Shown: positions 3,086-58,208 of the stretch, one piece after another
Layout of the letters: each line of letters begins with the position of its first letter
How positions within the stretch are numbered: position 1 is the first letter of the stretch
NCBI RefSeq assembly: GCF_902498785.1
Contig: NZ_LR701494.1
Span: 1,699,058 to 1,763,057, forward strand
Direction of reading: 5' to 3'
DNA from: Sphingomonas sp. EC-HK361
Lineage (GTDB): Bacteria; Pseudomonadota; Alphaproteobacteria; Sphingomonadales; Sphingomonadaceae
Length of the DNA: 64,000 nt
Position numbers and translations under genes: made by a program
The notes under the pieces: model-generated
Told to the model about the DNA's origin: nothing
Seen by the model: only the letters and a program-made list of their open reading frames with translations
Databases searched by the model: none

Positions 3086-3588
3086 GGTGCGGCGGGCGAA
3101 CGCCGGGCGTAGAGCGCAAGGCGCGCGACGATCTTGTCCGCGACCGTGACTGACAGGCGTTCGAGCGCGGTATTCTCGGCAGCGATCGTCGCATATTCCG
3201 AACCGACCACGTCGAGGCCCGCATCGGACCCGGCGGTCGCATCGAGGACGACGCCGTTGTTCGAAAGATCGACCAGCTGGTAGCGTGCGCGCAGAGTCCG
3301 GCGTTCGCGCGAGACGCTGTCGTCGGCGCGGACGCCGAGCCCCGCGATCTTGTCGTCGAGCGCAACCTGCAAGCGGTAGAGCGGGGCCTGCGCGCCGTCC
3401 TGCTGCCCCAGCCGTTCGCGCAGCGCATTGGCGACGAGCCAGCCCGACTTGCCCTGTATCGGCGCGACCTCGACCCGCGACAGCGCGGTCGCGACCGGGC
3501 CGCTCGCACCGCCCGCATAGAGCGGATGCAGGCCGCAGCCGCCGAGCAGCGGCAACGCGGCGAGCACGAGGGGCAGCAGCAGCCTCAT
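3082..3588 (-). CDS. lptE: LPS assembly lipoprotein LptE
   Basis: A 168-residue outer-membrane lipoprotein with a short hydrophobic signal and lipobox LLGGC, Cys18 being the predicted lipidated residue. The sequence [11 protein letters not shown] right after it is the classic LptE N-terminus. LptE plugs the LptD barrel and helps insert lipopolysaccharide into the outer leaflet. It is overlapped by four bases at each end, by leuS upstream and holA downstream, so expression is likely tied to leuS. Confidence 0.93.
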
Positions 3589-6269
3589 GCGACGAGGTTC
3601 ACGAGACGATCGGGCACGACGATAACCTTTCTGGGCGTCTTGCCCTCGAGGATACGCACGACCTTGTCGGACGCAAGCGCTGCGGCCTCGATCTGATCCT
3701 TGGGCAACCCCTTGGGCATCACGAGCGTATCGCGCAGCTTGCCGTTGACCTGGATCGCGATCGTCACCTCGTCATCGACGAGCAGCGCCGGATCGACCGC
3801 GGGCCAGGGCGCGTCGGCGATCAGCCCCTCGCCGCCAGCCGCCGCCCAGGCTTCCTCGGCCACATGCGGCGTCATCGGCGCGACGAGGCGCATCAGCGTC
3901 GCGATCGCGGCGGTGCGTGAGGCAGACGGCGCGGCCTTCTCGATCGCGCCGGTCAGTTCGTAGAGTTTCGCGACCGCCTTGTTGAACGCAAGTGCCTCGA
4001 TATCGGTCGCGACGCCAGCAATGGTGCGGTGGACCTTGCGATCGAGCGCGGCGTCGGCGCCCTCCCCGCTCTTCTCGCCATCGAAGAGCCGCCAGAGCCG
4101 CTGGACGAAGCGCCATGCGCCCTCGATCCCGGCTTCCGACCATTCCAGATCCTTCTCCGGCGGGCTGTCGGAGATGACGAAGAAGCGGACCGCGTCGGCG
4201 CCGTATTGGTCGACGATCGGCTCGGGATCGACCGTGTTCTTCTTCGACTTCGACATCTTCTCGACCCGGCCTGTCTTCACAGGAATGCCAGTGCTTCGCT
4301 GGAATACACCTGCTTCAGTTCGATCGATGTCGTCAGTCGGAACCCAAGCGAGATCGGTTATTGTTTCCACACCCAGTTTTGCTTGTTCTTCTGCGCTCGC
4401 CTCTCGCTCGACTTGGGTTTGATACGTCTCGTGCGTTACCATCCCCTGGGTGAACAGCCCCGCAAACGGCTCGGCGATGTCGAGCTGGCCGATATGCTTC
4501 AGCGCGCGCGTCCAGAAACGAGCGTAGAGAAGGTGTAGGATCGCATGCTCGACCCCGCCGATATACTGGCCGACCGGTAGCCACTGTTCCGCCGCCACGC
4601 GGTCGAACGGCTTGTCCTTGGGCTGACTGGCGAAGCGGATGAAATACCAGGAGGAGTCGACGAACGTGTCGAGCGTGTCGGTTTCGCGCCGCGCCGCCGC
4701 GCCACACTTCGGGCAATCGACGTGCTTCCACGTCGGGTGGCGATCGAGCGGGTTGCCGGGGATGTCGAACGCGACGTCCTCGGGCAGGACGACGGGGAGC
4801 TGGTCCTTCGGGACGCCGACCGGACCGCAGGCATCGCAGTGAATGATCGGGATCGGCGTGCCCCAATAGCGCTGGCGGCTGACGCCCCAGTCACGCAGGC
4901 GCCACACGGTCGTGCCCGTGCCCCAGCCCTCACCCTCGGCGCGGCTTATGACGGCGCGCTTGGCGTCCTCGATATCCATGCCGTCGAGAAAGTGCGAGTT
5001 CACGAGGGTGCCGGGGCCGGTATAAGCGGTGTCGCCGACAAAGACCGGCGCCGTTTCGTCGTGATCGGAGACGACGCGCTTGACCGGCAGGCCGTATTTG
5101 CGCGCGAAATCCAGGTCGCGCTGGTCGTGCGCGGGCACGCCGAAGACGGCGCCGGTGCCGTAGTCCATCAGCACGAAGTTCGCGATGTAGACGGGAAGCT
5201 GCCAGGCGGGATCGAGCGGGTGCTGCGCGGTGAGGCCCGTGTCGAAACCGAGCTTTTCCTGCGTCTCGATCTCAGCCGCGGTGGTGCCACCTTGCTTGCA
5301 GCGTTCGATGAAGTCCGCAGCGTCGGGGTTCGTCGCGACGACCTCGCGCGCGACCGGATGGTCCGCCGCGACCGCGACGAAGCTCGCGCCGAAGATCGTG
5401 TCGGGCCGGGTGGAGAAGACTTCGACGTCTTCTAATCCCCTCCCTGGAAGGGAGGGGTCGGGGGTGGGCTGGCTTGAGGCTGGCGCAGCGCTTTCCACGA
5501 ACGCACCCACCCCCAGCCCCTCCCTGCGTGCAGGGAGGGGAGCAGGAATAGGATGGGGAGAGAGTTTGAACCGAAACTGCAGCCCCTGGCTCTTGCCGAT
5601 CCAGTTCTCCTGCATCAGCTTGACCTTGTCGGGCCAGTGCTCGAGCCCGTCCAGGCCCTCGAGCAATTCGTCCGCAAAGTCGGTGATCTTCAGGAACCAC
5701 TGGCTGAGCTTGCGCTTCTCGACCAGCGCGCCGGAGCGCCAGCCGCGGCCGTCGATCACCTGTTCGTTGGCGAGCACGGTCATGTCGACCGGGTCCCAAT
5801 TGACCGCCGATTCCTTGCGATAGACGAGGCCGGCTTCGTACAGATCGAGGAACAGCGCCTGTTCGTGGCCGTAATAATCGGGCTCGCACGTCGCGAGTTC
5901 GCGGGTCCAGTCGAGCGCGAAGCCCAGGCGCTTCAACTGCGCCTTCATCGATGCGATGTTGGCACGCGTCCACGTGCCTGGATGAACGCCCTTTTCCATC
6001 GCGGCGTTCTCGGCGGGCATGCCGAACGCGTCCCACCCCATCGGATGGAGCACTTCCATGCCCTGCATCCGGCGGAACCGCGCCAGCACGTCGCCCATCG
6101 TGTAGTTGCGGACGTGCCCCATGTGTATCTTCCCCGACGGATAGGGGAACATCTCCAGCACATAGCTTTTGGGGCGCGGGGAATCGTCGCGCGCCGCGAA
6201 GGTGCGGGCGCTGTCCCACACCCCCTGCCAGTGCGCGTCCGCCTTCAGCGCGTTGAAGCGTGACGCCAT
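3585..6269 (-). CDS. leuS: Leucyl-tRNA synthetase carrying an in-frame palindromic-repeat insert
   Basis: Class I synthetase that charges tRNA-Leu. The HIGH-type motif appears as HMGH within [11 protein letters not shown] (residues 42-52) and KMSKS at about 671-675, with the CP1 editing domain between and an anticodon-binding C-terminus. Length is 894 residues, about 30-45 longer than expected, because residues roughly 235-279 are encoded by a palindromic element (5436-5544) rich in Pro and Gly. The insert lies just before [10 protein letters not shown], at the entry to the CP1 editing domain, and the frame resumes perfectly afterwards. Downstream lptE overlaps by four bases; the DUF3576 gene lies 12 bases upstream. 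Confidence 0.96.
5436..5544. repeat. 109-bp three-stem palindromic element inside leuS
   Basis: The element starts with CCCCTCCCT-GGA-AGGGAGGGG, a self-complementary hairpin. It ends with CCCCTCCCTGC-GT-GCAGGGAGGGG, a second hairpin. Between them GGGGGTGGG and CCCACCCCC pair to form a third stem around a variable centre. The same boundaries and stems recur at 49741-49847 in the same orientation, which defines it as a mobile-type repeat and not a leuS peculiarity. It is translated in frame as part of LeuS. Confidence 0.85.
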
Positions 6270-20280: not shown

Positions 20281-22773
20281 ATGTCCTCCACCGCCTCCGC
20301 CGTAACCGCCGTGCTCGGCCCCACCAACACCGGCAAGACGCATCTCGCGGTGGAGCGGATGTGCGGCCATTCCAGCGGGATGATCGGCTTCCCGCTCCGT
20401 CTTCTGGCGCGCGAGGTCTATGACCGCGTCGTCGCGATCAAGGGCGCAAACCAGGTCGCGCTCGTAACCGGCGAAGAGCGGATCGTGCCCAAGGATGCGC
20501 GGTATTTCCTGTGCACCGCGGAAAGCATGCCGGACAGGGACGTCGCGTTCGTCGCGCTGGACGAAGCGCAACTCGGCACCGATGCGGAACGCGGCCACGT
20601 CTTTACCGGCCGCCTGCTCCACGCGCGCGGGCGCGAGGAGACGATGATATTGGGATCAGCCGCGCTTCGTCCGGTCGTCAAGGCGTTGATTCCCAAGGTC
20701 GAGATCGTCGGACGACCCCGCTTTTCGACGCTCACCTATGCCGGCGCGAAGAAGATCAGCCGCCTCCCCCGTCGCTCCGCGATCGTCGCGTTCAGCGCGG
20801 AGGAAGTCTATGCCGTCGCCGAGATGCTGCGGCGGCTGCGCGGCGGCGCGGCGGTGGTGATGGGCGCGCTGTCCCCGCGAACCCGCAACGCCCAGGTCGC
20901 GATGTTCCAGGCAGGCGAGGTCGATTATCTCGTCGCGACTGACGCGATCGGCATGGGGCTGAACATGGACGTGGCGCATGTCGCCTTCGCCAGCCTCACC
21001 AAGTTCGACGGCCGCCGCAACCGCCGGCTGACGATCGCGGAAATGGCGCAGATCGCAGGGCGCGCGGGACGGCATCAGCGCGACGGCACGTTCGGCGCGC
21101 TGGTCGAGGACGGCCCGGGCGCTTTCCTGCCGGAGGAAGTGCTCGCGATTGAGGAGCACCGCTTCCCGTCGCTCGATTTCCTTTACTGGCGCGAGGGCGA
21201 GCCCGATCTGTCGAGCATCGACGCGCTGATCGCCAGCCTGGAAGCGAAGCCGCCCGCGGGCGTGCTCCGCCCGGCGCCGCAGTCGGTCGATCTCGCAGTG
21301 TTGAAGCGGCTGGCGGACGACCCCGCGATCCGCGACCGCGTGCGGCGTCCGGCGATGGTCGCGCGCCTCTGGGCTGCGTGCGGCATTCCCGATTTCCGCA
21401 AATCCGGCGTCGATCCCCACGCCCGCTTCGTCGCGCGCGTCTTCGGGCATCTGAGCGAGGGCAGCGGGCACCTGCCGCATCAATGGTTCGCCGACGAAGT
21501 GGCCCGGCTCGACCGCGCCGATGGCGATGTCGAGACGATCGCCGGGCGGATAGCGGGAGTGCGCACCTGGGCCTATATCGCACAGCGCAGCGACTGGCTG
21601 GCCGATCCGGCCCACTGGGCGGAGCGCACCCGCAGCGTCGAGGAACGCCTGTCGGATGCGCTCCACGCGAGCCTCACGCAGCGCTTCGTCGACAAGCGCA
21701 CGACAGCGCTGATCCGCCAGATCGGCGCCGATACGAGCGCGCTTCCCGTCACGATCGGCGCCGAGGGGGAGGTGCTGGTCGAGGATCACCCGATCGGCCG
21801 TCTGGACGGGTTCGCCTTCACGCCCGCGCCCGATGCGACCGCCAGCGACCGGCGGATGGTGATGGCCGCTGCGGGAAAACGGCTGGCGAGCGAGCGCACG
21901 CGGCGGGCGTCCGACCTGGCTGCCGACACCGTCTTCGCGATCGACCTCGCCGTGACGCCGCCGACGCTTGCCTGGCGCGGGTCGATTGTCGCGCGGCTGG
22001 TTGCCGGTGCGTCGCTGGCCCGGCCGCGGATAGCGCTCGACCCAAGCCTCGACTGCCTCGACCGCGCGGCACGTGATTCCATCGCGAGAACGCTCGGCGC
22101 GTGGCTCGATAGCGCGCTCGGCCGCCATGTCCCCGCGCTGCGCCACCTCGCCGCCATGGCGGACGATGCCGACGCGGGACCGATGCTGCGCAGCATTGCG
22201 GCAGCGCTGGAGGACGGCGCCGGGCTTGCCGCACGTGCGCCGCTGCGCGATGCGCTCGAGGCACTTTCTCCGGAAGGTCGCCAGCGTCTGCGCAAGGCTG
22301 GCATCACCATCGGCGCGCTCGATCTTTTCGATGCGCGCCTGCTCAAGCCAGCGGCTTCCGCTTGGCGCCGCGCGCTGCGTGCCCTGCGCAGCGAGCCGTT
22401 CGATCTGCCGCACGCCGGTGCGACGGTGTTGCCGCGCGGCGCGACCGGCGCGACGCCCGCAGCCGGTTTCCGTTCGCTCGGACAGCAGGCAATCCGCCTC
22501 GATCTCGTCGAGCGGCTCGCGCGCGCGGCGCATGATGCCCGCAAGGGCCGCGCGCCGTTCGCGACCGACCCCGCCCTTGCGGTCTCAATGGGCGTTCATC
22601 CCCAAACCTATGCGCGGTTGATGGCAGAACTTGGCTTTCGTCCAGTGAAGGGGGACGGCTTCGCCGAGCGTTGGGCGTGGCGCGGGCGCCCGCCGGTGCG
22701 ACGCGCGGCCGCCGTCGTGAACCCCGGCAATGCGTTCGCTGCCCTGGCGACGCTCGGTGCGGCGCGTGGCTGA
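20281..22773 (+). CDS. SUV3-like DExH-box helicase
   Basis: An 830-residue superfamily 2 RNA helicase of the mitochondrial SUV3 type, which occurs in Alphaproteobacteria. Walker A GPTNTGKT (13-20), motif II DEAQ (94-97), motif TDAIGMGLNMDV and QIAGRAGRH in the second RecA domain are all present, followed by a long C-terminal region. Start ATG at 20281 is chosen as the protein then begins just before VLGPTNTGKT; ATG at 20239 is an alternative. The stop lies inside the start of the S4 protein gene, so the two are coupled, pointing to an RNA-related role for both. Confidence 0.9.
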   Translation: MSSTASAVTAVLGPTNTGKTHLAVERMCGHSSGMIGFPLRLLAREVYDRVVAIKGANQVALVTGEERIVPKDARYFLCTAESMPDRDVAFVALDEAQLGTDAERGHVFTGRLLHARGREETMILGSAALRPVVKALIPKVEIVGRPRFSTLTYAGAKKISRLPRRSAIVAFSAEEVYAVAEMLRRLRGGAAVVMGALSPRTRNAQVAMFQAGEVDYLVATDAIGMGLNMDVAHVAFASLTKFDGRRNRRLTIAEMAQIAGRAGRHQRDGTFGALVEDGPGAFLPEEVLAIEEHRFPSLDFLYWREGEPDLSSIDALIASLEAKPPAGVLRPAPQSVDLAVLKRLADDPAIRDRVRRPAMVARLWAACGIPDFRKSGVDPHARFVARVFGHLSEGSGHLPHQWFADEVARLDRADGDVETIAGRIAGVRTWAYIAQRSDWLADPAHWAERTRSVEERLSDALHASLTQRFVDKRTTALIRQIGADTSALPVTIGAEGEVLVEDHPIGRLDGFAFTPAPDATASDRRMVMAAAGKRLASERTRRASDLAADTVFAIDLAVTPPTLAWRGSIVARLVAGASLARPRIALDPSLDCLDRAARDSIARTLGAWLDSALGRHVPALRHLAAMADDADAGPMLRSIAAALEDGAGLAARAPLRDALEALSPEGRQRLRKAGITIGALDLFDARLLKPAASAWRRALRALRSEPFDLPHAGATVLPRGATGATPAAGFRSLGQQAIRLDLVERLARAAHDARKGRAPFATDPALAVSMGVHPQTYARLMAELGFRPVKGDGFAERWAWRGRPPVRRAAAVVNPGNAFAALATLGAARG

Positions 22774-48993: not shown

Positions 48994-49725
48994 ATGACCG
49001 AGACCGTCTCCTTCGGCTACGAAGATATCGCCCCCGACGAGAAGACCGCGCGCGTCGGCGGTGTCTTTGCCAGCGTCGCCAGCCGCTACGACCTGATGAA
49101 CGACGCCATGTCGGGGGGCATGCACCGTTTGTGGAAGGATCGCTTCGTCCGCCGCGTGAACCCGCGCCCGGACGAGCAGCTGCTCGACATGGCCGGCGGC
49201 ACTGGCGACATCGCGTTTCGGCTGCAGAAATCGGGCGCGCAGGTGACCGTTGCCGACATCAACCCGGCGATGCTCGAGGTCGGCATGGAACGCGCGGCCA
49301 AACGCGGTATTGACGGCCTGGTATGGACCGAGGCGAATGCCGAGACGCTGACCTTCCCGGACAAATTCTTCGATGCCTATACCATCGCGTTCGGTATCCG
49401 GAACGTCACCGACATCCCGAAGGCCCTGCGCGAGGCGCACCGCGTGCTGCGGCGTGGCGGGCGCTTCTTCTGCCTGGAATTCTCGACGACGGTCTGGCCG
49501 GGCTTCAAGGAACTCTACGACAGCTATTCGCATCGCCTCGTCCCCCGGGTCGGCAAGCTGCTGGCGAATGACGAGGACAGCTATCGCTACCTCATCGAAT
49601 CGATCCGCCGCTTCCCCGATATGCCGACGTTCGAGGCCATGATCCGCGGCGCCGGTTTCGTGCAGACGAAGGTCGAGCCGATGCTGGGCGGCCTCGTCGC
49701 GATCCATAGCGGCTGGAAGATTTGA
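48994..49725 (+). CDS. ubiE: Demethylmenaquinone/ubiquinone methyltransferase UbiE
   Basis: A 243-residue class I methyltransferase: VASRYDLMNDAMSGGMHRLWK start, LLDMAGGTGDIAFR as motif I, and YTIAFGIRNVTDIPKAL and the RGGRFFCLEFS strand of UbiE. It adds the C-methyl group in ubiquinone synthesis. A palindromic repeat separates it from ubiB, with which it is normally paired. Confidence 0.96.
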   Translation: MTETVSFGYEDIAPDEKTARVGGVFASVASRYDLMNDAMSGGMHRLWKDRFVRRVNPRPDEQLLDMAGGTGDIAFRLQKSGAQVTVADINPAMLEVGMERAAKRGIDGLVWTEANAETLTFPDKFFDAYTIAFGIRNVTDIPKALREAHRVLRRGGRFFCLEFSTTVWPGFKELYDSYSHRLVPRVGKLLANDEDSYRYLIESIRRFPDMPTFEAMIRGAGFVQTKVEPMLGGLVAIHSGWKI

Positions 49726-49740
49726 TGAAACTGCCGGTCC

Positions 49741-49847
49741 TCCCCTCCCTGGAAGGGAGGGGTCGGGGGTGGGTCGGCCTGTTGGCGGACGGCGCAACCG
49801 CCTCACACCAACCCACCCCCATCCCCTCCCTTGCAGGGAGGGGAGCA
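49741..49847. repeat. Second copy of the three-stem palindromic element, before ubiB
   Basis: 107 bases with the same boundary sequence, first hairpin CCCCTCCCT-GGA-AGGGAGGGG, central GGGGGTGGG/CCCACCCCC stem and closing hairpin ending GGGAGGGGAGCA as the copy in leuS at 5436. The centre between the stems differs. It fills nearly the whole ubiE-ubiB gap, and its right end lies just ahead of the ubiB start. Confidence 0.85.
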
Positions 49848-49852
49848 AGCGC

Positions 49853-51331
49853 ATGACTCCGTCGGTCGTCCACCTCTGGCGCCTATTGAAATGGGGCCGC
49901 ATTCTCGCGCGGCACGGCGCGTTGCAGGGGATCGAGCACGATCCGAACACGCCCGCACCCGTCCGCCGGCTGGCGCGCATCGCGCGGTTCGGCGCGCGCG
50001 TTCCCAAGGTGCCGGCCTATGCCGACGCGTTTCAGGCGATCGGCCCGGCCGCGATCAAGCTTGGCCAGACGCTCGCGACACGCCCTGATCTGGTCGGGGA
50101 CGCCGCCGCGCACGATCTGCTGCGGTTGCAGGACGACCTGCCCCCCATCCCCTTCGCCACGCTCCGCCCCGCGATGGAGGCGAGCTTCGGGCGTCCGCTG
50201 GAGGCGCTGTTCGCGTCGATCGACGAAACGCCCGTGGGCGCCGCCTCGATCGCGCAGGTCCACCGCGCGGTGACGACCGAAGGGCGCCAGGTTGCGGTGA
50301 AGGTCATCCGCCCGGGCGTCGAAGACGAGTTCGCGCGTGCGATCGACACCTATGAATGGGCCGCGGCGCAGGTCGAGCAGATGGGCGGCGAGGCATCGCG
50401 CCTGCGCCCGCGCCTCACGATCGAAACCTTCAAACGCTGGACCGCGCGTGAGTTGAACCTGCGCCGCGAGGCGGCCTCCGCCTCCGAACTCGCAGAGGGC
50501 ATGACGGCGGAACCGGATTTCGTCGTCCCCGCGATCGACTGGCAACGCACGACGGCGAAAGTGCTGACGCTGGAATGGGTCGACGGCATCAAGCTGTCCG
50601 ATCGTTCGGCGCTGGCCGCATCGGGGTTCGACCTGCCGATTCTCGCCCGCACGCTCGTCCACGCCTTCCTGCGCCAAGCGATCGCGGAAGGCTTTTTCCA
50701 CGCCGATCTCCACCAGGGCAACCTCTTCGCGCTGCCCGGCAACCGCATCGCGGCGATCGATTTCGGCATCATGGGGCGGATCGACAGGCGGGCGCGAGTG
50801 TGGCTCGCCGAAATCCTCTACGGCCTCATCACCGGCAATTACCGCCGCGTCGCCGAAATCCATTTCGAAGCCGGCTACGTCCCTTCCCACCACAATGTCG
50901 CCGAATTCGCGACCGCGCTGCGCGCCGTCGGCGAGCCGATGCGCGGGCTGCCGGTCAAGGACATGTCGATCGGCATGATGCTCGACGGGCTGTTCGCGAT
51001 CACCCGCGATTTCGACATGCAGACCCAGCCGCATCTGCTGCTGCTGCAAAAGACGATGGTGATGGTCGAAGGCGTCGCGACCGCGCTCGATCCCGACATC
51101 AACATGTGGGATACCGCACGTCCCGTGGTCGAAGACTGGATCCGCACCGAACTCGGCCCCGAGGCCGCGATCGCCGACCGGCTGGTCGCCGATGTCCGCA
51201 CGCTTGCCCGCCTGCCCGATCTCGTCCGCCGGATCGAGGCGCATTTCCCCGCCCCCGGCCCGAAGGCCCCCGCCCCGCCCACATCAAGGACCGCATCCGC
51301 GCGCTGGGGCCAACGGTGCGGCCGGACCTGA
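49853..51331 (+). CDS. ubiB: UbiB-type atypical kinase, 3-prime end frameshifted
   Basis: 492 residues as sequenced. ADCK/UbiB features: KLGQTLATRPD (the KxGQ motif), ASIAQVHRAV, LNLRREAASASELAEG and FHADLHQGNLF with DFGIMG. Its ATPase activity supports ubiquinone biosynthesis at the inner membrane. In the +1 frame the sequence continues HIKDRIRALGPTVRP to a stop at 51375, which looks like the genuine C-terminus; in the main frame it becomes TSRTASARW and stops at 51331. A missing C in the C-rich run at about 51272-51280 would explain this. The ribosome site is part of the palindromic element. Confidence 0.9.
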   Translation: MTPSVVHLWRLLKWGRILARHGALQGIEHDPNTPAPVRRLARIARFGARVPKVPAYADAFQAIGPAAIKLGQTLATRPDLVGDAAAHDLLRLQDDLPPIPFATLRPAMEASFGRPLEALFASIDETPVGAASIAQVHRAVTTEGRQVAVKVIRPGVEDEFARAIDTYEWAAAQVEQMGGEASRLRPRLTIETFKRWTARELNLRREAASASELAEGMTAEPDFVVPAIDWQRTTAKVLTLEWVDGIKLSDRSALAASGFDLPILARTLVHAFLRQAIAEGFFHADLHQGNLFALPGNRIAAIDFGIMGRIDRRARVWLAEILYGLITGNYRRVAEIHFEAGYVPSHHNVAEFATALRAVGEPMRGLPVKDMSIGMMLDGLFAITRDFDMQTQPHLLLLQKTMVMVEGVATALDPDINMWDTARPVVEDWIRTELGPEAAIADRLVADVRTLARLPDLVRRIEAHFPAPGPKAPAPPTSRTASARWGQRCGRT

Positions 51332-51394
51332 CGCTGAAACCAGCCGATCCGGATGCGGGGAGCTGGGTGATATGATTGCCAGCGAACCATTGTA

Positions 51395-51439
51395 TCCCCG
51401 CGAAGGCGGGGATCCAGACTGGGCTCCCGCCTTCGCGGG
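51395..51439. repeat. Inverted repeat CCCGCGAAGGCGGG type
   Basis: CCCGCGAAGGCGGG near 51397-51410 and CCCGCCTTCGCGGG near 51425-51438 are inverted copies around GATCCAGACTGGGCT. This is a widespread sphingomonad intergenic repeat. It lies in the gap before cysI. Confidence 0.8.
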
Positions 51440-51471
51440 AGCACATGGAAACCTACCGGAATGACGAACTA

Positions 51472-53127
51472 ATGTACCGCTACGACACCTACGACCAGGC
51501 GATCGTCGATGCCCGCGTCGACGAATTCCGCGATCAGGTCCGCCGCCGCCTCGCCGGGCAGATCACCGAGGATCAGTTCAAACCGCTCCGGCTGATGAAC
51601 GGCCTCTATCTTCAGCTCCACGCCTACATGCTGCGCGTCGCCGTGCCCTACGGCACGCTCGACAGCCGCCAGATGCGGATGCTCGGCCACATCGCGCGCA
51701 AGTACGACCGGGGCTACGGCCATTTCACCACGCGGCAGAACATCCAGTATAACTGGATCAAGCTGGAGGATGCGCCCGATATCCTCGCGGACCTCGCGAC
51801 GGTCGAGATGCACGCCATCCAGACGAGCGGCAACTGCATCCGAAACATCAGTTCGGATCAATATGCCGGCGCCGCCGCGGACGAAGTGGCCGATCCGCGC
51901 CCCTGGGCGGAGATGATCCGGCAATGGAGCACCTTCCACCCCGAATTCAGCTATCTGCCGCGCAAGTTCAAGATCGCGGTGATCGCCTCGGACGAGGACC
52001 GCGCGGCGATGCGGCTCCACGATATCGGCATCCAGCTCGTCGAGCGAGACGGCGTTCTCGGCGCGAAGGTCTTCGTCGGCGGCGGCATGGGCCGCACCCC
52101 GATGATCGCGCCCGAGATCAAGGACTTCGTCACCGCCGACGACCTGATGAGCTACCTCGAGGCGTGCCTTCGCGTCTACAATCGCTACGGCCGGCGCGAC
52201 AATATCTACAAGGCGCGGATCAAGATCCTGATCCACGAACTCGGCGCGGACGAATACCGTCGCCAGGTCGAGGAGGAGTTTGTTTCGGTAAAGGCGCTGG
52301 GCATCGATCCGCCCGCCGCCGAGCTCGCCCGGATCACCGCGATGTTCGTCCCCCCTCCGTTTGCTTCGAGCGAAGTCGAGAAGCGTGTCTCGACTTCGCT
52401 CGACACAAGCGGGGGGAAAGACCCCGACTTCGCGCTCTGGGTTGCCCAGAACGTCCGCCCGCACAAGCAAGCCGGCTGCGCGATCGTCAACATCAGCCTG
52501 AAACCGATCGGCCAGATCCCCGGCGATGCCTCTGCCGACCAGATCGACGTGATGGCCGATCTCGCCGAGCGCTACAGCTTCGACGAGCTGCGCGTCACTC
52601 ACGCGCAGAACATCGTTCTGCCGCATGTCCGCAAGGCGGACCTCTATACTGTATGGCAGGCGCTGACCGACGCGGGACTGGCGGAAGCCAATCTCGACCT
52701 CATCAGCGATATCATCGCCTGCCCCGGCCTCGATTACTGCAGCCTCGCCAACGCCCGCTCGATCCCCGTCGCGCAGAAGATCGCGACGCGCTTCGCCGAT
52801 CCGGCCCGCCAGCGCGATCTGGGTGAGCTGAAGCTGAAAATCTCGGGCTGCATCAACGCGTGCGGCCACCACCATGCCGGCCACATCGGCATCCTCGGCG
52901 TCGACAGGAAGGGCACCGAAAACTACCAACTGCTCCTCGGCGGATCGGGCGCGGAGGACGTGTCGCTCGGCAAGATCACCGGTCCCGGCTTCTCCGAGGA
53001 CGGCATCGTCGATGCGATCGAGCGGGTGACCGACAAATATGTCGCGGTGCGCGAGGACGGCGAGCGCTTCCTCGACACCTATCGCCGCGTCGGATTCGAG
53101 CCGTTCAAGGAGGCGATCTATGGTTGA
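51472..53127 (+). CDS. cysI: Nitrite/sulfite reductase hemoprotein, in-frame palindrome inserted
   Basis: A 551-residue siroheme/4Fe-4S reductase. Cluster ligands are Cys417 and Cys423 (ACPGLDYCS) and Cys460 and Cys464 (SGCINACGHH); the substrate-binding RN segment is QTSGNCIRNISSDQYAG. It reduces sulfite to sulfide using an external electron donor; no CysJ flavoprotein is nearby. Residues about 294-315 (PPPFASSEVEKRVSTSLDTS) come from a palindrome at 52351-52416 and are not part of the family. Operon with DUF934 and cysH. Confidence 0.93.
   Translation: MYRYDTYDQAIVDARVDEFRDQVRRRLAGQITEDQFKPLRLMNGLYLQLHAYMLRVAVPYGTLDSRQMRMLGHIARKYDRGYGHFTTRQNIQYNWIKLEDAPDILADLATVEMHAIQTSGNCIRNISSDQYAGAAADEVADPRPWAEMIRQWSTFHPEFSYLPRKFKIAVIASDEDRAAMRLHDIGIQLVERDGVLGAKVFVGGGMGRTPMIAPEIKDFVTADDLMSYLEACLRVYNRYGRRDNIYKARIKILIHELGADEYRRQVEEEFVSVKALGIDPPAAELARITAMFVPPPFASSEVEKRVSTSLDTSGGKDPDFALWVAQNVRPHKQAGCAIVNISLKPIGQIPGDASADQIDVMADLAERYSFDELRVTHAQNIVLPHVRKADLYTVWQALTDAGLAEANLDLISDIIACPGLDYCSLANARSIPVAQKIATRFADPARQRDLGELKLKISGCINACGHHHAGHIGILGVDRKGTENYQLLLGGSGAEDVSLGKITGPGFSEDGIVDAIERVTDKYVAVREDGERFLDTYRRVGFEPFKEAIYG
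52351..52416. repeat. Palindromic element inside cysI
   Basis: CGAGCGAAGTCGAGA (52367-52381) is a perfect inverted copy of TCTCGACTTCGCTCG (52388-52402), with a six-base loop. Flanking CCCCCTCCG and CGGGGGG arms extend the stem. It is unrelated to the leuS element. It is read in frame within cysI. Confidence 0.8.
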
Positions 53128-54350: not shown

Positions 54351-54430
54351 CGTCACCCCGGACTTGATCCGGGGTCCCGCTTCTTGGCGCCGCTTGACTA
54401 GCGGGACCCCGGATCAAGTCCGGGGTGACG
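54351..54430. repeat. Perfect 30-bp inverted repeat after cysH
   Basis: Arms 54351-54380 and 54401-54430 are perfect reverse complements, each containing CACCCCGGACTTGATCCGGGG. The 20-base loop is unique. The same arms recur at 58128-58208. It fills the cysH-cupin convergent gap and may act as terminator. Confidence 0.92.
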
Positions 54431-58127: not shown

Positions 58128-58208
58128 CGTCACCCCGGACTTGATCCGGGGTCTCGCTACCTTGGCACGCCGCAACAAGCGGGACCCCGGATCAAGTCCG
58201 GGGTGACG
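58128..58208. repeat. Second copy of the 30-bp-arm inverted repeat
   Basis: Arms 58128-58157 and 58179-58208 match the repeat at 54351 except for one base in the left arm (T for C, still a G-T pair in RNA). The loop differs. It occupies the cdd-crp convergent gap. Confidence 0.92.

Follow-up and report, generated by a model that had tools for sequence, protein, structure and literature searches.

Short dispersed palindromes reside in frame at recurrent sites in leuS, carA and other conserved genes of Sphingomonas

The leucyl-tRNA synthetase gene of the Sphingomonas DNA analysed here contains a palindromic repeat that is read in frame, and this insert very probably belongs to a set of short palindromes, non-autonomous and dispersed in sphingomonad genomes, of which copies inside core genes are kept if they preserve the frame and tolerated in loops. 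Such repeats are dispersed, reside in frame within conserved genes, recur at the same sites, turn over between relatives and are under relaxed constraint at the protein level. Three protein sites are occupied recurrently, two of them by repeat families that are unrelated to one another.

A palindrome at the entry of the LeuS editing domain

The window, that is, the whole 64-kb stretch analysed, holds the following features. Repeat families are denoted by letters of our own (A, A2, B, Bx, C, D and F), which are defined by stem sequence.

3585..6269, minus strand: leuS (leucyl-tRNA synthetase), 894 codons, intact, with an in-frame insert
5436..5544, minus strand: palindromic repeat of family A, composed of a hairpin, a long stem and a hairpin, read in frame
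5439..5558, minus strand: extra LeuS residues, approximately codons 238-277, between beta-strands 226-236 and 281-286
49740..49850, plus strand: another copy of family A, located after an upstream ORF and ahead of the probable start of an ABC1-kinase gene, fold z -8.5
52353..52416, plus strand: palindrome of family D, TCGACTTCGCTCGA type, in frame within the nitrite/sulfite reductase ORF 51376-53124

An earlier, sequence-only reading had described a 109-nt palindrome in frame within leuS, and its coordinates and shape proved right. An open reading frame check found no stop across the palindrome in the leuS ORF (3585-6269, minus strand), whose product matches the Pfam class I synthetase, LeuRS editing and anticodon-binding domains, all above cut-offs. 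The repeat (5436-5544, 109 nt) comprises two short hairpins of the CCCCTCCC...GGGAGGGG type, whose arms are rich in C and in G, and, between the two, a long pairing with arms (5449-5468 and 5506-5525) that are complementary at 90%. Folded as single-stranded DNA, it reached a z of -4.7 relative to 200 dinucleotide shuffles. The family A hairpin pattern occurs three times in the 64-kb window when up to three mismatches are allowed, versus 0.01 matches expected. Searching the whole window with Rfam at gathering scores returned a single tRNA and no match at the repeat; separately, ARAGORN predicts a 99-nt tRNA-Lys at 20941-21039, where the Rfam tRNA model is silent at gathering score.

The second family A copy, which the earlier reading had reported at 49741 in a gap between genes, was placed at 49740-49850. 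It shares an identical 33-base run with the leuS copy at one end, while the spacer has diverged. The upstream ORF stops at 49722 and the downstream gene encodes an ABC1-kinase (UbiB-like), whose stop-to-stop frame extends back across the repeat; we call this copy intergenic because the in-frame ATG at 49853, located by eye, is taken as the kinase start. The family D palindrome at 52353-52416 folds with a z of -7.4, and its host ORF (51376-53124) carries Pfam NIR_SIR domains. Further palindromes were noted in the window: one with CCCGCGAAGGCGGG arms (51397-51439) at the front of the reductase ORF, ahead of its likely start; a larger nested one of the CCTCTCCTGGAAGGGGAGG type (1955-2072), which by eye resembles family C; and two very similar 80-nt palindromic dimers starting with CGTC (54351-54430 and 58128-58208), the latter overlapping an ORF end. 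These dimers resemble the CGTC REPs described in PMC3733652.

To the protein, the repeat adds a stretch at the entry of the CP1 editing domain, where the insert precedes the Pfam editing domain (280-444). The span from ENWIG to RPDT measures 71 residues in the window LeuS and 31-36 residues in 122/150 LeuS rows, from which we derive a net gain of about 40 residues, within the range of 35-45 that had been proposed. Aligned with the solved LeuRS structure 6q89, the window protein matches over residues 15-237 and 275-893, and at the insert position the 6q89 chain runs through no more than a short segment (its residues 238 to 246). In an AlphaFold2 model built from 40 sequences (mean pLDDT 85.4), values below 50 are confined to residues 241-277 and 368-371, making the insert the sole long stretch of very low confidence. 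The insert is thus predicted to be disordered and to lie in a turn at the CP1 entry; from the structural alignment and the model together, the repeat would lengthen this turn, with the remaining fold as predicted.

Recurrent occupation of protein sites across relatives

The first LeuS sample, consisting of the best 80 of at least 592 related loci, contained one recognised palindromic insert, of another kind and at the same place, in its top-ranked locus (L001); six long loops of this sample were folded and are not palindromic (L013, L046, L048, L057, L066, L069). A Sphingomonas genus sample around L001 covered 201 genomes, 200 of them with a LeuS match, and 110 of its loci were fetched in a non-random selection (the 30 that best matched a query with an insert, plus 80 further listed); all but L133 and L140 had a readable loop. 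An in-frame palindromic insert is present in 23/108 readable loops, all within the 30 best; since 86 genomes of the sample lay outside this reading, the 23 are a minimum and their share is no frequency estimate. These inserts fall into families A (L111), A2 (L121), B (11 loci: L112-L120, L125 and L127), B in another phase (L129), Bx, meaning family B with a nested palindrome (L134, L136), C (L122-L124, L126, L128, L130) and D (L132). The long loop of L131 is not palindromic (z -0.2). A second palindrome, apparently nested in the family B insert, extends the span to 88-89 residues in L001 and L134, and the short turn of L164, with residues LLPAGGEERI, resembles the remnant of a repeat end and may be the scar of a deletion.

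Extending the survey to the family level (298 genomes, 293 matching) yielded 29 new loci (L255-L283) in addition to L127, and two of these 29 repeat genomes G001 and G019. These loci added family B (L255, z -13.1; L256), family D (L257; L265, z -5.3) and a stem type termed F (L263). In L267 a contig end cuts inside a B-like insert, and six loci have longer loops, none reaching z -3 (L259, L260, L261, L264, L266, L268). Among LeuS rows with spans of at least 45 residues, 30/37 fold at z ≤ -3 (100 dinucleotide shuffles each), a tally that includes a G001 locus three times and a G019 locus twice. Palindromic repeats of at least four kinds occupy this one leuS turn: A/A2/B, C, D and F. Broken frames were seen in L133 (family B insert), L276 (one hairpin) and the insert-free leuS of L140; the breaks within the repeats of L133 and L276 are possibly assembly errors, L140 being broken likewise.

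Most LeuS read are insert-free, including L002, L006, L008 and L043 of the genus sample, so that the insert is not a general feature of the sphingomonad LeuS read. Nor is it simply strain-specific, as the turn is filled, empty or refilled among close relatives. That a repeat entered leuS therefore holds, although not as a single odd event: this turn was struck repeatedly, and by different families.

A second recurrent site lies in CarA. Searching 201 genomes with an insert-bearing query returned 53 with one match spanning the whole query or nearly so, and all 30 of the best loci harbor an in-frame insert in the linker between two domains. A simple classifier assigned 19 of these to B, six to A2 and five to D. 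Fold scores of z ≤ -3 were obtained for 28/30 CarA inserts (exceptions L306 and L310) as compared to 1/52 control stretches.

For the reductase (151 genomes searched, 148 matching), the family D insert was found in none of the 26 readable loci among the 30 best matches. In length, nearly all of the matches listed are close to the empty gene; two are longer, L376 and L377, and both contain D-type palindromes in the same loop as the window (z -6.1 and -4.5). With these two, the reductase loop becomes a third recurrent site, filled more rarely and by one family so far.

Copies are also scattered outside these sites, as counted in related genomes plus the 64-kb window. The hairpin pattern matched 65 times in G001 and 26 times in G002, and in 2/9 related genomes it had no match; together with the two copies in the window, these matches bear out the proposal that a dispersed repeat entered a core gene. 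We inspected a hairpin-plus-stem sample of 30 loci from seven genomes, representing at most 27 sites, and scanned part of them with Pfam. Six of these sites lie in frame within conserved genes:

L084: class I tRNA synthetase gene, in-frame element, Pfam matches on both sides or around
L086: carA, in-frame element, Pfam matches on both sides or around
L098: putA, in-frame element, Pfam matches on both sides or around
L099: glyS, in-frame element, Pfam matches on both sides or around
L105: squalene-hopene cyclase gene, in-frame element, Pfam matches on both sides or around
L092: glycine dehydrogenase gene, front part, in-frame element, Pfam matches after the element only

A family B copy within an ATPase gene (G027, L222) is likewise flanked by Pfam matches on both sides. 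In G001, which also carries inserts in leuS (L136) and carA (L291), the A2 hairpin pattern occurs 85 times, and the 30 loci sampled there correspond to 21 sites after merging neighbours. Seven of the 21 are in frame within conserved genes. In five of these (valS, glyS, the squalene-hopene cyclase gene, an RNase R-like gene and a propionyl-CoA-carboxylase-like gene) Pfam matches flank or enclose the element, and in two (murD and a glycine dehydrogenase subunit gene) they follow it; three of these in-frame sites also belong to the seven-genome sample. At the other 14 sites, the side ORFs (chosen by length and composition) match different families in 11 cases and have one side without a match in three; no gene split out of frame was found among these 14. 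In-frame, stop-free copies thus reside in unrelated conserved genes, namely leuS, carA, glyS, valS, murD, putA and the genes for the propionyl-CoA-carboxylase-like protein, the RNase R-like protein and squalene-hopene cyclase.

Turnover, constraint and competing explanations

We propose that repeat copies land both between and inside genes, moved by some process for which no transposase was identified, and that a copy within a core gene would persist only if the frame is kept, its phase is stop-free and the site is a surface loop or linker. A retained copy would be translated as a disordered linker rich in Pro, Gly and Ala. The CP1-entry turn of LeuS and the inter-domain linker of CarA are probably such tolerant places, which would explain why both are repeatedly filled by unrelated families and why they are vacated or filled anew between species that are very near relatives. 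Judging from sequence, the inserts are probably translated and the products active. We infer that they are tolerated passengers, selection keeping only frame-preserving copies in tolerant loops.

To gauge turnover, we placed palindrome presence and absence on a tree of 124 LeuS (24 with a palindrome), from which the insert was excluded and which, having been built by a quick method, has many weak forks. At least 14 changes are required when three non-palindromic long loops are treated as insert-free, 11 of them forced by well-supported branches; shuffled labels gave a mean of 22.2 changes, and counting insert classes instead gave 20. Taken together, 14 versus 22.2 changes imply that the inserts partly cluster, yet are gained or lost often. 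Several pairs of LeuS that differ in state are nearly identical once the variable parts are set aside: L122 (C) and L153 (empty) at 98.6%, L115 (B) and L124 (C) at 98.0%, L134 (Bx) and L137 (empty) at 97.8%, and L129 (B, other phase) and L130 (C) at 95.5%. Among 18 pairs differing in state, which are disjoint by row rather than proven to be phylogenetically independent, 17 are 85-99% identical.

In a bolder reading, certain linkers of essential sphingomonad enzymes would be cassette sites, at which unrelated palindromes are exchanged in place on the time scale of species by a hitherto undescribed process. We consider this doubtful; if true, the disordered linker would differ between nearly identical enzymes, which might influence translation accuracy or regulation.

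Comparisons of filled and empty LeuS revealed the native turn to be replaced and not simply interrupted, and no target duplication was seen by eye in 12 such comparisons, mostly of non-sister strains. Within one family, junctions fall at nearly the identical codon across species, and the three inserts in the sulfite reductase loop are all of type D, as though the moving machinery picked particular DNA and the hot spots did not stem from tolerance. Such target choice appears distinctly unlikely, however, because unrelated families with different stems sit at the same leuS turn and CarA linker and because the leuS turn also varies in length through non-palindromic sequence. Moreover, the insert phase differs in a minority of cases, L129 in LeuS and L293, L295 and L296 in CarA. 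These phases were assigned by eye; a tally by simple patterns miscalls L116 and L122 and misses L296, and we relied on it for eye-checked cases only.

Selective constraint speaks to a possible benefit of the inserts. Across eight family B LeuS, pN/pS amounts to 0.70 in the insert versus 0.10 in the flanks. This relaxation, the freely varying family, length and peptide of the inserts, and the predominance of insert-free LeuS, close relatives included, render it very unlikely that the inserts are kept because an mRNA hairpin or a disordered loop adjusts how strongly LeuS is expressed, how fast it folds or how it edits, even though the leuS site is refilled repeatedly, inserts persist across several related species and the coding-strand hairpin of the insert is very stable.

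In four close family C LeuS, pS is lower in the insert (0.025) than in the flanks (0.184) and the inserts are nearly identical, so that part of the sharing reflects one origin, through recombination or descent; the B inserts of one clade also have a common spacer. Extending this to one old leuS insertion, inherited and passed on by recombination and diversified through divergence, is highly improbable: by eye, a common element is not apparent in A/B, C and D, their junctions differ, and family B is present in two reading phases. The notion that the palindrome is native, GC-rich loop sequence of LeuS with a chance fold, which could appeal to a naturally variable turn with several longer non-palindromic loops, was rejected as next to impossible, because related genomes and other parts of the window contain similar copies and 0/200 shuffles fold as well as the leuS palindrome.

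Relation to known repeats and meaning for Sphingomonas

The closest known counterparts are the palindromic elements of Wolbachia and of Rickettsia (RPEs), the latter 105-146 bp long (PMC2229807) and dispersed between genes as well as in frame within conserved protein genes (PMC2229807; PMC10969869). An RPE-bearing Gmk is active, with changed substrate affinity, according to PMC2229807. The sphingomonad repeats share with the Rickettsia and Wolbachia elements that they are palindromic, dispersed, intergenic and in frame, and those of families A/A2/B are 92-116 nt long (range over 31 full elements matched). They differ in that their hosts are not rickettsial symbionts, that unrelated families share one landing site and that sites fill and empty between close species. 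The parallel with Rickettsia that the sequence-only reading had suggested is borne out by dispersed palindromes in frame within conserved genes, and the sphingomonad repeats appear, by analogy in their way of working, to act like the protein-coding palindromes of Rickettsia.

Two of the bacteria reported to carry REPs within genes, E. litoralis and S. alaskensis, are sphingomonads. Di Nocera et al. 2013 describe intragenic REPs in many bacteria, including X. oryzae, E. litoralis and S. alaskensis, where tRNA synthetases are affected, as well as different REPs at about one place in recB of two Xanthomonas (PMC3733652). The Rickettsia and Wolbachia elements thus hold as a precedent, but not as the sole one. 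REPs of the GTAG and CGTC super-families are also small palindromes, often spacer-separated dimers, mostly intergenic and in some cases in frame. CGTC units are characterised there by a CGTC (TGTC, CCTC) tag, A-T as the first two stem pairs, a 4-5 nt loop and a CCA-like tail (PMC3733652). By eye, the family A/B hairpins appear to lack both a GTAG or CGTC tag and A-T first pairs: the stems of families A/A2/B, the ones so inspected, begin with C-G pairs, and no such tag was seen, which tells against membership. Same-site recurrence is described in the sections of PMC3733652 considered here for recB only. MITE-like small mobile sequences with open frames, as portrayed in PMC2229807, are likewise short non-autonomous repeats fused in frame with genes; several of them have target site duplications and TA ends. 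At the sphingomonad LeuS sites compared, no target duplication was seen by eye.

As a present-day mover, a RAYT was considered and rejected, since the Y1-transposase domain (PF01797) had no match in seven of eight repeat-bearing genomes and only one region with two matches in G019; a past or distant enzyme may nonetheless have acted. A literature search for the family A hairpin letters in sphingomonads gave only unrelated titles among the matches listed. No account of the sphingomonad repeat group was found, with subscription journals mostly outside the search, and in the mostly open-access literature neither same-site recurrence by unrelated families nor recurrence in leuS or carA was found described. 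In-frame intragenic palindromes are an established kind, and the absence of a found precedent for this repeat group and for same-site recurrence by several families counts as weak evidence of novelty.

Harm is to be expected when mobile-like DNA inserts into an essential gene, and it is in intracellular bacteria with reduced genomes that the well-known coding palindromes occur. In Sphingomonas, coding palindromes recur, and natural pairs of nearly identical enzymes exist with and without the insert; pairs such as L122/L153 and L134/L137 make the question of passenger versus new protein part directly testable. The genes leuS and carA could thereby serve as reporters of repeat movement, and such core genes provide a natural record of proteins tolerating parasite-like DNA.
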